Shown here one piece after another: positions 21,222-25,950 of a DNA stretch of 64,000 bases. The DNA comes from Halobellus litoreus (GTDB taxonomy: Archaea; Halobacteriota; Halobacteria; Halobacteriales; Haloferacaceae): NCBI RefSeq assembly GCF_024464595.1, contig NZ_JANHAW010000002.1:186001-250000 (forward strand), read 5' to 3'. Below the pieces are notes generated by a model. It searched no databases. It was not told where the DNA came from and saw nothing but the letters and a program-made list of their open reading frames with translations. The position numbers and the translations under genes are program-made. How positions within the stretch are numbered: the stretch's first letter is position 1; every line of letters starts with the position of its first letter.

Positions 21222-23687
21222 TCAGTCGTCAGCGGGCGGTGCCACTGCGGGCTGCGGGGAAGCGGGTTCCGCATCCGCTTCGAGCCCCGTCCACGAGAGT
21301 TCCTCCTCGTAGTGGAAGGCCTCGTGATCCCGGGTCGGATCGACGACCGTCAGCGACAGCCAGTCGTTGTCGAGGAGCGTGGTGAGTGTCGGGTGCTCGG
21401 AGAGGACGTCGGTCACGCGGTCGACCGGCGCGTGGATCACCGTGGAGAGCCGGAGCGGCTGGTGGTAGGGTTCGCCGTCCGTCCCCGTCACCGACTGGAG
21501 CGGGAGGCCGCGCATCAGGTCGCCGCCGTTGCCCTGATACACGCCGACGTTGCCGATCGGGTTGTGGGTCACCTTCGAGCCGCTCCCGTAGGCGGCCGTG
21601 TCGACAGTGGCGAAGTAGTACTGGGTGTTGATCCACTGCGTGACGACCATCGGGCCGGTGAGGATGCCCTCCAGGGCGTCGCCGTCGGGGTCCGCGCGCC
21701 AGTCGTAGGAGTGGAGGAAGGCGCGCCCGTTCAGATCGAGGTCGGCGGTGAGGTCCCGCGGCCCGATGACGAACCCCGCGTTGCCGGCGAGGCCCCACTC
21801 GGGGCGGGTTTCGGCCCAATCGCCGGCGCGACGCGCCGTCTCGCGCCCGGCGTTCGACGAGTCCGCGTTCAGCGATTCGGCGCGCTCTGCGGCCGCACCC
21901 TCGGCGGCGGTCGCGAGGTCGGCGCGCAACTGTTCGACGTCGTCCGCGTGGCTGGCGGGAACCGAATCGTCGTACAGCGACACCTCGTCGGTCGTGGTGT
22001 TGTGCTCGGCGGCGACGAAGACGGTGTCCTCGGGAATTTCGATGCCCCGCGCTGCAAGCGCCGTGCGCACCGCGTCGTCGTTGCAGATCGACGCGAGGAC
22101 GCGGGCGTTCGGACCGCCGGGGTTGCCGGCGCAGGCCCCGCAGTCGAGGCTCGATCCGAACGCGTTGTTCGAGGTCTCGCTCGCGTGACCCGCGAACGCG
22201 ACGACGCGGGCGAACTCGTCCCACCCCATCAGCTCGAAGGCCGTCGCGGCGTACTCGACGCGCTCCTCGAACGCCATCCCCAGCGGGAGGTCGCCGTGGG
22301 AGTCGTCGTCGCGTTCGAGCGTCTGGCGGCAGAACTCCCGAGCGTTCGGCACCCGCTCGTCGACCGCGTTCAGGAGGTTGCGGACGCCACCAGGGAGGAG
22401 CGTCCGGGCCGCGAGCGCCGCCCCGTACCCGCTTCCGGACGTCTCGACGAAACTGAACGCCGTCGCGGCATTCGACTTGAGCGAGTGGAGGAGCGCCTCG
22501 CCCGCCTCGACCGCGTGGGTCCACCGGTCGTGGCTCGCGTGGCGGTGATCTTGGCCGTCTGTCGGCCGCTCTTCGATCCGGTGGGCGGCGTCGACGATCG
22601 GCGGGCACGCGTCGGCCCCGACGTCGGAGCCGTATCCCTGGTAGCGCATCGGGACGCCGAAGAACCCGGCGTAGCCGTGCGTCTCGTAGTTGCCCGTGGC
22701 TTCGACGTGCCGGCGGATGACCTCCGAGCGCGTGTCGATGCAGAAGACCAACTGCGCGTCGGGGCGGTCGCCGTCGTCCGATCTCGCGCGGGTGGCGCTC
22801 TCCTCGGCGACGGCGTCGACCAACTCCTCGCGGTACGTCGCCTCCCAGGCGTTCAGCCAGACCTCGGCCAGCGGGACGCCGCCGTCGGCCTCGGCGCCGG
22901 CGGACGTGCCCGGAGCGTCCGCGGTCCCGTCCGAGACCGCTGCGGGCGCGATGGGCGCGCCGAACGCGTCGGCGAGCGTCAGCCTGACGGCCAGGTACCC
23001 GGGAAGCGTGATCGGGTGCGCCGACTGCCAGGAGTCGCCGTCTTCGACGCGCTGTCTGATCAGGCCGCTCCAGCCGGGGAGGGCGGTCAGGTGATGCTCG
23101 AAGATCGCCACCCACTCGTCCCGCCGGTGCCCGTCGAGGCGGTCGGCCAGGGTCTCGATCGGATCGTCCGGGAGGTCGCCGACTGCCGCGGCGTCTGGGA
23201 TCTCCCGGTCGTGGCGTCCGACTGAACGGAACGCGCGGTAGAACCCCTCCGAGCGATCCGCCATCGGCCACTCCGCGCGGCCCTGATCGAGGAACGAGGC
23301 CAGCCACTTCGTCAGGACGCTGTCGACACGGTCCGACGGGGTCGTCTCGGACTCGGCGGGATCGGCGGACGAGTCGTCGGCGGCCGCCTCGGCGGACATC
23401 CGGTCGAGGGCCGTCTCGGGGTCGGCGTCGTGCCCGTTCCGTTCCAGTTCCTCCCGGAGAATCTCCGGGTCGATCTGGCCGCGCTCCCACGCGCGGCGGA
23501 AGACCGCGGCGCTCGGGTACCCGTCGCCCCCGAACAGCCGCTCGCCGTGCGCCACCGCCTCGTGGAAGGGCCGGTCCTCGAAGCCAGCGAGGGGGTTGGC
23601 CGTCACGAACGAGTGGAGCGGCCAGACGCGGCCCACGGCGGTCGACGCCTGTTCGATACTGTCGTGAATCGCAGTCTCAGTACTCAT
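21222..23687 (-). CDS. dabA: DabA, inorganic carbon accumulation subunit (DUF2309)
   Basis: An 821-residue protein of the DabA family, a carbonic-anhydrase-like partner of DabB that traps CO2 as bicarbonate at the membrane. The four proposed zinc/active-site residues are present: C316 and D318 in FCIDTRSE, H501 in FAGHASE and C516 in LDCGACAG. Translation is coupled: the start lies within the last 11 bases of dabB and has a GGAGG ribosome site. Acidic insertions near residues 100-120 and 255-270 are typical of halophilic adaptation. Confidence 0.92.
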   Translation of the reverse strand: MSTETAIHDSIEQASTAVGRVWPLHSFVTANPLAGFEDRPFHEAVAHGERLFGGDGYPSAAVFRRAWERGQIDPEILREELERNGHDADPETALDRMSAEAAADDSSADPAESETTPSDRVDSVLTKWLASFLDQGRAEWPMADRSEGFYRAFRSVGRHDREIPDAAAVGDLPDDPIETLADRLDGHRRDEWVAIFEHHLTALPGWSGLIRQRVEDGDSWQSAHPITLPGYLAVRLTLADAFGAPIAPAAVSDGTADAPGTSAGAEADGGVPLAEVWLNAWEATYREELVDAVAEESATRARSDDGDRPDAQLVFCIDTRSEVIRRHVEATGNYETHGYAGFFGVPMRYQGYGSDVGADACPPIVDAAHRIEERPTDGQDHRHASHDRWTHAVEAGEALLHSLKSNAATAFSFVETSGSGYGAALAARTLLPGGVRNLLNAVDERVPNAREFCRQTLERDDDSHGDLPLGMAFEERVEYAATAFELMGWDEFARVVAFAGHASETSNNAFGSSLDCGACAGNPGGPNARVLASICNDDAVRTALAARGIEIPEDTVFVAAEHNTTTDEVSLYDDSVPASHADDVEQLRADLATAAEGAAAERAESLNADSSNAGRETARRAGDWAETRPEWGLAGNAGFVIGPRDLTADLDLNGRAFLHSYDWRADPDGDALEGILTGPMVVTQWINTQYYFATVDTAAYGSGSKVTHNPIGNVGVYQGNGGDLMRGLPLQSVTGTDGEPYHQPLRLSTVIHAPVDRVTDVLSEHPTLTTLLDNDWLSLTVVDPTRDHEAFHYEEELSWTGLEADAEPASPQPAVAPPADD

Positions 23688-25173
23688 TGTAGTCCTCCGT
23701 GGAATTCAGCACCGTCGCGGTCGGCGGCTGGGACGCGTTCAGGAGCGTCACGTAGAGACGCCGGCTGCGACGGTGGACTCCCGTCTCGATCGCGAGGTAC
23801 GCCAGGACGAACGCGGCGGCGACGAGGCCGTGTCCCAGGGTCAGCGGTACCGGCGCGGCGACGACTGGCAGCCCCGCCAGGACGGCTCCGACGGCCTGAT
23901 AGACCACCCCGTAGACGGCGATCGCGGGGAGGAACACGAGCGGGACGGCGGCCGCCCGGGTCACCGGCGAGAGCTCGGCCTGTCCGATCGTCTCCCGCGT
24001 CGCGTGCAGCGTCGTCAACACGACGACGAGCGTCAGCAGGAGTCCGGTGTCGAGTCCCGCGCCCTTGCCGGTGAGCAACACGAACACCGCCCCGCCGGCC
24101 GCTGCCGACAGGACCGTCGCGACCGTGCCGACGACTCCGAGGGGGGCGCCGTGTGACTCCGCCGTGGGGCTCGTCCGTTCGACCCGGGCCCCCGACGAGA
24201 GGAACTTGTAGGCCTTGTAGAACCCGTGCAGAATGAGGTGGGTGATCGCCGCGCCGAAGAACCCCAGGCCGGCCTGCATAATCATAAAGCCCATCTGACC
24301 GGTCGTCGAGCAGCCGAGCCGGCGCTTGACGTCGGGTTGAACCGACTTCAGGAGCTTCCCGCCGAGCGCGCTGACGGCTCCGAGCACGACGATCCCGAGC
24401 AGTACCTCCGGGCTCACCGTCACGACGGGGGCGAACCGCACCAGCAGAATCCCGCCCGCGTTGACGAACCCCGCGTGCATCAACGCCGACGCGGGGGTGG
24501 GGGCGGTCATCGAGGCGAGGAGCCAGGTGTGGAACGGAAGCAGCGCCGACTGGATCATCGCCGCCAGGACGAGGAGTGCGGAGACGAGAAGCACCGTCGA
24601 GGTCGGGAGTGACCCGACCGACGCACCGATCCCGGCGACGGTCGTCGCGCCGGTCTGCCACCACGAGACCGCCAGGGCGAGACCCAGCAGGCCGCTGCTC
24701 GCGAGGAAGTACCGACGGGCGAGACTCGCCGCCGACCCCGCCTGCGGCCACTCGCGGACGTGCCCGATCAGATCGGCCATCACGAGGCCCATCGCCAGCC
24801 ACGCGGCCGCGAAGAGCGCCGCGTGGTTCGCCGCGACGAGCACCATCACGACCAGCGTGAAGGCGAACACTCTGGTAAAGAACCGCACGAACCCGCTGTC
24901 ACCGGCCATATACCGGCGCGAGTAGCTGTGGACGATCCCGCTGAAGAAAGTCACGACGACCCACAGCAACAGCGTCAGTCCGTCGACCGCGACGGCGTCG
25001 CCGAGTGCAACGGTCGCCGGCCACCATCCCAGCAGTCGCGCGCCGACCGCGACGAGACTCACAGCGCAGAGCCCCCACACGAGTCGCGTGAGCACGACCG
25101 GCACGAGCGTCGTCCGCTCCGGATTAGCGTTCGGCAACTCTCCGATCGTCGTCGACTGATTCTCTCCTGTCAT
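23677..25173 (-). CDS. dabB: DabB, proton/cation-conducting NuoL-like membrane subunit
   Basis: A 498-residue polytopic membrane protein of the NuoL/MrpA family with about fourteen helices. Conserved features include HSYSRRYMAGD and the HAGFVNAGGILLVR segment of the cation channel. Paired with DabA it forms the DAB dissolved inorganic carbon system, in which an ion gradient drives CO2 hydration and bicarbonate accumulation. Its promoter region contains an array of AGAAC/GTTCT half sites. Confidence 0.9.
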   Translation of the reverse strand: MTGENQSTTIGELPNANPERTTLVPVVLTRLVWGLCAVSLVAVGARLLGWWPATVALGDAVAVDGLTLLLWVVVTFFSGIVHSYSRRYMAGDSGFVRFFTRVFAFTLVVMVLVAANHAALFAAAWLAMGLVMADLIGHVREWPQAGSAASLARRYFLASSGLLGLALAVSWWQTGATTVAGIGASVGSLPTSTVLLVSALLVLAAMIQSALLPFHTWLLASMTAPTPASALMHAGFVNAGGILLVRFAPVVTVSPEVLLGIVVLGAVSALGGKLLKSVQPDVKRRLGCSTTGQMGFMIMQAGLGFFGAAITHLILHGFYKAYKFLSSGARVERTSPTAESHGAPLGVVGTVATVLSAAAGGAVFVLLTGKGAGLDTGLLLTLVVVLTTLHATRETIGQAELSPVTRAAAVPLVFLPAIAVYGVVYQAVGAVLAGLPVVAAPVPLTLGHGLVAAAFVLAYLAIETGVHRRSRRLYVTLLNASQPPTATVLNSTEDYNEY

Positions 25174-25485
25174 ACTCGAATTCGTCGCCGGTCAGACGCC
25201 GTGGGCTTCGATCCGAAGCTCCCTCGCACGGTATCCGACCGAATCAGCCTATCGTAGAACAGAACGTCTATTAAATCTGTTTATCTGAACAGATCGTTCT
25301 CTAATAGGACATTATAGAACATTATGTTCTTTGCGTTACGGACGGTCGCCGGTCAGTTCATCTCGGAAACCGATGAGAAACGGGTCCTCAACGCGCTGCG
25401 GACGGTTGCTGCGTTCCGCTCGTCGATTCGGGCGTTCTAGTGATCCCCGCCCCCAGTCGCCGGGACGGGACGACACCGGTCAGAA
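25174..25485. promoter_or_regulatory. dab promoter region with AGAAC/GTTCT half-site array
   Basis: The stretch 25255-25330 is AT-rich and packed with inverted half sites: AGAACATTATGTTCT (25316-25330), GAACAGATCGTTC (25287-25299), CTGTTTATCTGAACAG (25277-25292) and GTAGAACAGAACG near 25257. A minus-strand TATA-like TTTAAT lies at about 25268-25275. These are likely binding sites of a dimeric regulator; the Lrp-type protein encoded just upstream is the obvious candidate. The rest of the interval contains only a doubtful 38-codon frame. Confidence 0.6.
25324..25440 (+). CDS. Possible 38-residue small protein (doubtful)
   Basis: An ATG-initiated frame of 38 codons with TAG stop, antisense to the dab promoter region. 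The peptide contains ALRTVA twice and is amphipathic. GC at third positions is lower than in neighbouring genes and it begins inside the inverted repeat AGAACATTATGTTCT. It may be a chance frame; no ribosome site is visible. Confidence 0.2.
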   Translation: MFFALRTVAGQFISETDEKRVLNALRTVAAFRSSIRAF

Positions 25486-25950
25486 TCAGTCGGGGTCGAA
25501 CTCGCCGAACGGCTTCGTCTCGTGACTCCGGACGAGCACCTCGTCGGCGACGGTCAGGCCCATCTCCAACAGTTCCTGCGCGACGGGGGTGATGTCGTCG
25601 TCCGTGTGCCCGACGACGGTTACGAGGAGGTTCTGCTCGCCGGTGACCAACTCCTGGACCGAGACGACGCCGTCGATCTCCAGGATCTCCGGGATGAGCT
25701 CCCCGCGGTCGGGGATCGACGCGGTGCAGAAGAGCAGCATTCGGAGCGGATAGCCCGACGCCTGATAATCCACCTCGGCGCTGTAGCCCTTGACGACCCC
25801 GTCCTTCTCGAGTCGCTGAATCCGCTTGCGGACGGTGCTGTCTGACGTCCCCGTTCGCTCGGCGATGTCACCTGACGACATGTTCCGCGCGTCCTCCTGA
25901 AGCGCGTGGAGGATCGCCCTGTCGACGTCGTCGATCTCCCGTTCGGCCAT
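25486..25950 (-). CDS. Lrp/AsnC-family transcriptional regulator
   Basis: A 154-residue regulator with an N-terminal helix-turn-helix (DDVDRAILHALQEDAR, SDSTVRKRIQRLEKDG) and a C-terminal ligand-binding domain (GVVSVQELVTGEQNLLVTVV). Such proteins act as dimers or octamers that sense amino acids or other small molecules. The gene lies immediately upstream of dabBA on the same strand, separated by the half-site array, so it is a candidate regulator of carbon uptake. That link is inferred. Confidence 0.88.
   Translation of the reverse strand: MAEREIDDVDRAILHALQEDARNMSSGDIAERTGTSDSTVRKRIQRLEKDGVVKGYSAEVDYQASGYPLRMLLFCTASIPDRGELIPEILEIDGVVSVQELVTGEQNLLVTVVGHTDDDITPVAQELLEMGLTVADEVLVRSHETKPFGEFDPD

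Follow-up and report, generated by a model that had tools for sequence, protein, structure and literature searches.

Introduction

The targets described for Lrp-type regulators are clusters of imperfect sites whose centres are spaced two or three helical turns apart, and most Lrps are reported to regulate their own genes (PMC2995911). In a study of an Acidianus Lrp, atomic force microscopy depicts an octamer around which a three-site intergenic region is apparently wrapped (PMC10201364). On the side of inorganic-carbon transport, bacterial DAB is described as carrying out vectorial CO2 hydration, and the regulation treated in the part of that account consulted here is enzyme gating, not transcription (PMC13144422). 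The dabAB genes of Hfx. volcanii are listed as HVO_2410/2411, a predicted CO2 transporter (PMC8305020). Literature searches on dabAB, on the Hfx. locus tags and on transporter regulators, which covered few subscription papers and some sources in part, returned no regulator of an archaeal DAB.

Here we describe a phased array of semi-palindromic sites, spanning roughly 90 bases and strongly conserved among haloarchaea, in front of dabBA in a 64,000-nucleotide stretch of Halobellus litoreus contig NZ_JANHAW010000002.1 (the window, to which coordinates refer unless another locus is named). We propose that positions 25255-25330 are the operator-promoter of dabBA, where a multimer of the adjoining Lrp protein probably binds the phased sites and represses transcription while inorganic carbon is sufficient.

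Results

Layout of the array

On the minus strand, lrp is followed by a 312-bp gap, dabB and dabA; the initial annotation had placed the Lrp gene directly upstream, and across this gap that is where it lies. The features are as follows.

Lrp/AsnC-type regulator: 25486-25950, minus strand; candidate binder of the array
Site A: 25316-25330, minus strand; 15-bp perfect inverted repeat AGAACATAATGTTCT, family core CATAATGTTCTATAAT
Site B: 25286-25300, minus strand; imperfect inverted repeat AGAACGATCTGTTCA, just upstream of the TATA-like box
TATA-like element TTTAATA: 25269-25275, minus strand; 15 bp from the reference G of site B and of site C
Site C: 25256-25270, minus strand; strong half-site TGTTCT (25256-25261) plus a weak second half
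dabB: 23677-25173, minus strand; Complex-I-like membrane subunit (Proton_antipo_M and _N)
dabA: 21222-23687, minus strand; probable inorganic carbon transporter subunit, PF10070, E 1.5e-264

DabA and DabB are encoded side by side, the arrangement by which DAB is recognized, and together they form a probable CO2/bicarbonate pump.

Within the lrp-dabB gap, GAACA occurs at 25257, 25287 and 25317, that is, in exact 30-bp steps, and the pattern GAACA-N25-GAACA-N25-GAACA is found once in the 3.86-Mb genome, at this locus. Two of the copies fall within 15-bp inverted repeats, the one at 25317 in the perfect repeat AGAACATTATGTTCT and the one at 25287 in TGAACAGATCGTTCT (25286-25300), and the third, at 25257, is part of the half-site at 25256-25261. 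The centres of sites A, B and C are thus 30 bp apart, and there is no overlap between A and B. Midway between B and C is the TATA-like box, and site C in turn falls between this box and the inferred transcription start. The GAAC half of site B is the half conserved in the family.

The three strings quoted in the initial annotation are all present (AGAACATTATGTTCT at 25316-25330, GAACAGATCGTTC at 25287-25299 and CTGTTTATCTGAACAG at 25277-25292), and with the genome-unique GAACA triple the array that it described upstream of dabBA is real. Its description of at least three overlapping inverted pairs stands in part: two inverted repeats, A and B, are there, but they do not overlap, and the third pair, CTGTTTATCTGAACAG, was rejected as a conserved element, being absent from the family consensus.

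Individual palindromes carry little weight. The lone zero-mismatch place for AGAACANNATGTTCT in the window is the site A palindrome, and with up to three mismatches this string has 15 matches against 2.7 expected (both strands, palindromes counted twice), a number reached in none of 100 shuffles. A lone palindrome nevertheless says little, because GAACA is overrepresented window-wide (133 against 66.8 expected), GAACNNNNNGTTC occurs 255 times in the genome, and the sole other exact AGAACANNNTGTTCT in the genome falls inside a 243-aa ORF; isolated AGAACANNNTGTTCT was accordingly rejected as a regulon marker. It is the phasing, not the single inverted repeats, which are common genome-wide, that sets the array apart.

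A 38-codon ORF (25325-25441) starts inside site A and reads rightward. As a candidate gene it has no Pfam match and is, by eye, absent in the nearest relative (L009); we treated it as probably a chance ORF.

Conservation in the Haloferacaceae

We gathered 126 dabB upstream regions from the family and seeded a nucleotide profile with 12 of them. At a loose threshold all 126 have a forward match, and 122 reach at least 19 bits; the remaining four score 15.3, 12.2, 5.0 and 4.2 bits, and in the weak loci L123, L120 and L040 B- and C-like sites are still visible by eye. The family consensus on the dabB sense strand reads roughly ACCATAATGTTCTATAAT, some 8-10 variable bases, and CGAACGATTTGTGAATATAGATAGATTTAATAGACATTCTGTTCTC. 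The initial annotation had named conservation of the sites and of half-site phasing in relatives as a check on its reading, and both are found. A strict pattern placed all three sites in 106 of the 122 loci (16 not located), with A-B spacings of 30 (83 loci) or 31 (23 loci) throughout, B-C spacings of 30 in 101 loci, 31 in four and 25 in one, and the TATA-like box 15 bp from both B and C in 89. These counts favour a total of 60 bp, since the script took the set nearest that total among several candidate sites; an ungapped family alignment shows the same spacing without this rule.

Conservation is uneven along the array. Nine of the 106 loci, seven of them from the window's own genus, have the left half of A (GAAC) in full, and the GTTC of site C is among the most conserved positions. 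Over 63 positions, the array, located in 37 of 41 neighbourhoods and missed in four, has a mean pairwise identity of 0.70. Three control stretches score lower: 0.28 for the one immediately upstream, 0.32 for the lrp promoter and 0.35 for the bases that precede the dabB start. Alignment explains part of this contrast, because the array was aligned by its own motif, whereas a start codon served as anchor for the last two controls. A shift of 30 bp was the best of those tested, and the best shift of shuffled columns equals or beats it in 748 of 2000 cases; at shift 30 alone, 14 of 2000 column shuffles reach the observed value. In 81 ungapped family loci, the observed mirror symmetry about the TATA box is matched in 16 of 2000 column shuffles with all dyads considered, and that about site B in six of 2000.

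Relatives of the window carry further conserved bases downstream. A candidate half-site D (GACC, ~82 bp after site A) is conserved among them and may be counted as a site only tentatively, a start-site element being the alternative. GTAGAGACGACC is conserved in relatives ~10-15 bp after site C, near the likely start, and is missing in the window (25230-25250); it may represent either a start-site element or a fourth half-site. In one MAG (L120 / L205), extra GAAC/GTTC words extend beyond the usual three sites upstream of dabB.

Confinement of the array to dabB promoters

A sequence-only profile trained on 60 family loci and run over 167 family genomes gave 123 matches with E 3.7e-5 or better in 120 genomes, every one of them less than 400 bp upstream of a same-strand DabB gene. 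When 128 family DabB places were compared with these matches, five had no strong match: G160 and G158, whose arrays are divergent (L040, L120), G002, whose gene is partial, and the second dabB of G069 and of G079. Weaker matches (E 4e-4 to 0.1) comprised scattered noise and, at the same loci, matches on the opposite strand, which palindromic arrays can produce.

Outside the family, where the profile was untrained, 72 genomes yielded 73 matches with E 1e-3 or better, and 72 of these matches lie less than 400 bp upstream of DabB. Seen from the gene, 72 of 73 DabB loci have an array match, corresponding to 71 of 71 DabB genomes; the locus that lacks one is the second dabB of G284. In 22 of these 72 loci (16 of 25 genomes in family f4) the match sets in only past site A. 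What holds generally is therefore the core made up of B, TATA box and C, whereas site A can be recognised in the other 50. One match (G246, E 4e-4) belongs to a genome that lacks DabB and is flanked by genes with no relation to dab; it is a chance match or a relic. At the level of the profile, then, the array is confined to dabB promoters.

The second dabB copies without an array match (G069:C1:43237, G079:C3:338331 and G284:C3:424689) are divergent, at 49-54% identity, and possibly represent a dab subtype under other control; within the 4-kb stretch around that of G284 (L276) neither array nor Lrp was detected.

An Lrp gene that accompanies dabB and the array

By tblastn, all 41 neighbourhoods of 20-24 kb have an Lrp gene on the dabB strand no more than 2.6 kb upstream of dabB. 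In a crude gene clustering of these neighbourhoods, with an antisense ORF cluster over dabB disregarded, dabA appears in 39, Lrp in 34 and the next family, an amidohydrolase, in 15, which makes Lrp the only general neighbour besides dabA. The Lrp ortholog is also present where it is unlinked to dabB (G095, and G193, at a distance of 54 kb), and the second dabB copies of G049, G072, G140 and G201 are each accompanied by an array and by an Lrp ortholog close by.

The association extends over the class. With thresholds of E 1e-60 or better for DabB, E 1e-3 or better for the array and at least 214 bits for the Lrp ortholog (among the Lrps listed, the next-best score at most 161 bits), DabB is encoded in 125 of 194 genomes, of which 124 have the array and 124 the Lrp ortholog, and the 69 genomes without DabB include one with an array match (G246) and one with an Lrp ortholog (G250). 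These counts are not independent, as the genomes share ancestry and the lrp-dabB linkage alone yields part of the association. The DabB genome without an array match is G160; the one without an Lrp ortholog is G181, which has dabB and the array, with dabB starting 1.1 kb from a contig end. Within the family, the ortholog was found in 121 of 127 DabB genomes. Three exceptions (G107, G121, G133) are outside the 167 searched genomes, yet have Lrp beside dabB; two (G002, G062) have partial dabB genes, and the last (G097) is 72% complete.

Searching named records with the Lrp protein returned 80 loci, of which 51 held distant bacterial Lrps and were left out. The other 29, all haloarchaeal, have both an array match (E 4e-4 or better) and DabB; they come from Halobellus, Halorubrum, Halovenus, Haloarcula (and Halomicroarcula), Halomicrobium, Natronomonas, Halapricum, Haloglomus, Haloquadratum and Halogeometricum.

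The ortholog of G250 is 68% identical and resides in a genome without DabB or array (L273 4136-9561). Its neighbours are genes for a CO-dehydrogenase-family enzyme (Prismane, PF03063), which catalyses a reaction that likewise involves CO2, for a MinD-type ATPase and for an MFS transporter; this is another carbon-oxide context for the pump-less ortholog.

Other genes occasionally intervene between lrp and dabB. Carbonic-anhydrase-like genes stand directly upstream of the array in four of the 41 neighbourhoods, between lrp and the array and on the same strand as dabB:

L149: 8333-9070, carbonic-anhydrase-like gene, above the Pfam cut-off
L153: 8332-9063, carbonic-anhydrase-like by similarity clustering alone, without a Pfam match
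L154: 8427-9110, carbonic-anhydrase-like gene, above the Pfam cut-off
L171: 11020-11721, carbonic-anhydrase-like by similarity clustering alone, without a Pfam match

In 15 of the 41 neighbourhoods the amidohydrolase gene (for example L163 11069-12091) lies between lrp and dabB and reads away from dabB, so the array could serve two divergent promoters in some genomes.

Features of the Lrp protein

Judged by its domains, the protein is a member of the Lrp/AsnC family. It has an AsnC-type HTH (PF13404, E 2.2e-14) that was matched in 30 of 30 orthologs scanned. The predicted structure (mean pLDDT 67) consists of three helices followed by b-a-b-b-a-b, and this element order, together with alignment of the RAM-only entries 2cvi and 2e1a (TMt 0.78 and 0.80), identifies a RAM domain; the Pfam RAM model PF01037 is absent among the families shown for the Lrp and its orthologs. 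Foldseek returned 44 matches at E 0.001 or better, PDB Lrp/FFRP entries among them, and we take all 44 to be Lrp/AsnC-type proteins or like-built siroheme decarboxylases. Full-length superpositions were poor (rmsd above 10), and the domain arrangement of the model is therefore not trusted.

Orthologs in the family are 74-100% identical to the Lrp of the window and are more conserved than DabB. The core of the recognition helix is largely common to paralogous Lrps, and specificity is therefore not readable from the helix. As a special mark of these proteins we also considered the N in the TGxxN loop of the RAM domain and rejected it, as it is common to orthologs and paralogs (147 and 18 sequences).

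No common array was found in the lrp promoters: GAACA/AGAAC-type words occur in 15 of 41 lrp upstream stretches at scattered positions, and three Halobellus share such a word at -12. With the words scattered and no strong profile match at lrp promoters, autoregulation through the same array was rejected.

Proposed mechanism and alternatives

By its architecture, with 13-15-bp semi-palindromic sites whose centres are 30 bp apart, the array is an Lrp-type operator of putative occupancy. Comparison across genomes supports well the Lrp-type multimer suggested by the initial annotation, through co-occurrence, linkage, the unlinked orthologs of G095 and G193 and the three-turn spacing. We infer Lrp binding, wrapping, the direction of repression and the signal as follows. 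Lrp (25486-25950) would bind as a multimer of dimers, one dimer per site; the three sites, ~three helical turns apart, would present one DNA face, with a weak fourth half-site downstream possible in relatives. The bound multimer would cover or wrap the core promoter, the TATA-like box lying between B and C, and dabBA would be repressed when inorganic carbon, or its metabolic read-out, is sufficient. When inorganic carbon runs short, a ligand or a change in the amount of the protein might loosen the complex.

Control of dabBA in response to carbon, as the initial annotation had put forward, is plausible; the signal is suggested by the role of DAB and by the carbonic-anhydrase-like neighbours in a few genomes. 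A competing account, compatible with the binding part of our explanation and with a substantial though lesser claim to be right, is that a general nutrient signal (amino acid or nitrogen) drives Lrp and that dabBA is a feast/famine output. Characterised Lrps are often tied to amino-acid metabolism (PMC2995911), and a pull-down with nasABC, a nitrate-assimilation promoter, recovered a haloarchaeal Lrp (PMC8143581). Such a signal sits less easily with the finding that all strong family array matches are at dabB, by which a wide regulon acting through the array is not seen, and with the carbonic-anhydrase-like genes beside the array in a few genomes.

The direction of control is less certain than the binding, with repression somewhat preferred to activation. 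Archaeal transcription starts ~25 bp downstream of the TATA box, and a protein bound between the two is expected to hinder initiation. It is because site C lies between the TATA box and the likely start, an argument from position only, that we favour repression. The same Lrp on the same sites might activate instead, with dimers on A and B helping to recruit TBP/TFB and C an auxiliary contact, a scheme that departs from our explanation in nothing except direction. That A and B are upstream of the TATA-like box would suit it, as would the related Lrp Ah-BarR, which is described as repressing one promoter and activating another from a single intergenic region in a reporter host (PMC10201364); the highly conserved GTTC of site C, between the TATA-like box and the inferred start, tells against it, and we regard activation as the minority prospect.

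We consider it improbable that another, unlinked regulator binds the array and that Lrp is merely a linked gene. The recognition helix of Lrp is not distinctive, which leaves room for such a factor, but Lrp is the sole general neighbour besides dabA, tracks dabB and the array class-wide and is present though unlinked in G095 and G193, and the site architecture matches that described for Lrp operators. Finally, a functionless chance cluster of common GAAC/GTTC words in an AT-rich gap, for which the abundance of GAACNNNNNGTTC (255 in the genome) might speak, can be practically dismissed: 122 of 126 family loci retain both the sequence and its spacing, and beyond the family the profile recovers 71 of 71 DabB genomes.

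Beyond repression of dabBA by an Lrp multimer, we entertain as a speculative extension, on balance doubtful, that Lrp is itself the sensor of inorganic carbon, detecting CO2/bicarbonate or a direct product of carboxylation with its RAM domain, and acts as a one-target switch. If true, this would be an inorganic-carbon-responsive Lrp that stayed with the DAB pump through the haloarchaea.

Discussion

The locus offers a candidate regulator-operator pair that has been kept across a whole class and whose exact sites are defined, in a field, the control of inorganic-carbon uptake in archaea, that is undescribed within the literature reached. As an Lrp case it is also unusually clean: there is a single strong target, and the geometry, with its three-turn phasing and central TATA box, is fixed. 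It would be suited to studying how an Lrp multimer acts on an archaeal core promoter.

Among known systems, the DabAB / MpsAB complexes share with this locus a DabA (PF10070) beside a Complex-I-like DabB, to which the window adds an associated Lrp and a putative operator. The haloarchaeal LrpA1 and Lrp equivalogs (NF041395, NF041396) belong to the same protein superfamily, but the dab-linked protein scores 51.9 and 43.9 bits against them, far under the cut-offs of 250 and 190, and would thus be a distinct haloarchaeal Lrp that no NCBIfam equivalog covers. Lrp HFX_0246 of Haloferax mediterranei is, likewise, a haloarchaeal Lrp on a metabolic promoter, nasABC; it differs in being encoded next to glutamine synthetase and in its link to nitrogen instead of a carbon pump (PMC8143581).

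The closest likeness is to Lrp/AsnC regulators and their operators. The dab-linked protein has the AsnC-type HTH and a RAM-like domain of these regulators, and the operators of FL11, Ptr2, Ah-BarR and E. coli Lrp comprise several 13-15-bp semi-palindromic sites with two- or three-turn spacing (PMC2995911, PMC10201364). Compared with these, the dab array targets an inorganic-carbon pump and has no strong family copy away from dabB; a TATA-like box is fixed midway between two of its sites, sequence conservation is deep, and no common array is present at the dab-linked lrp itself. The dab array and Lrp thus appear to work in the manner of other pairs of Lrp and operator; what is unusual about them is the target and the depth of conservation.
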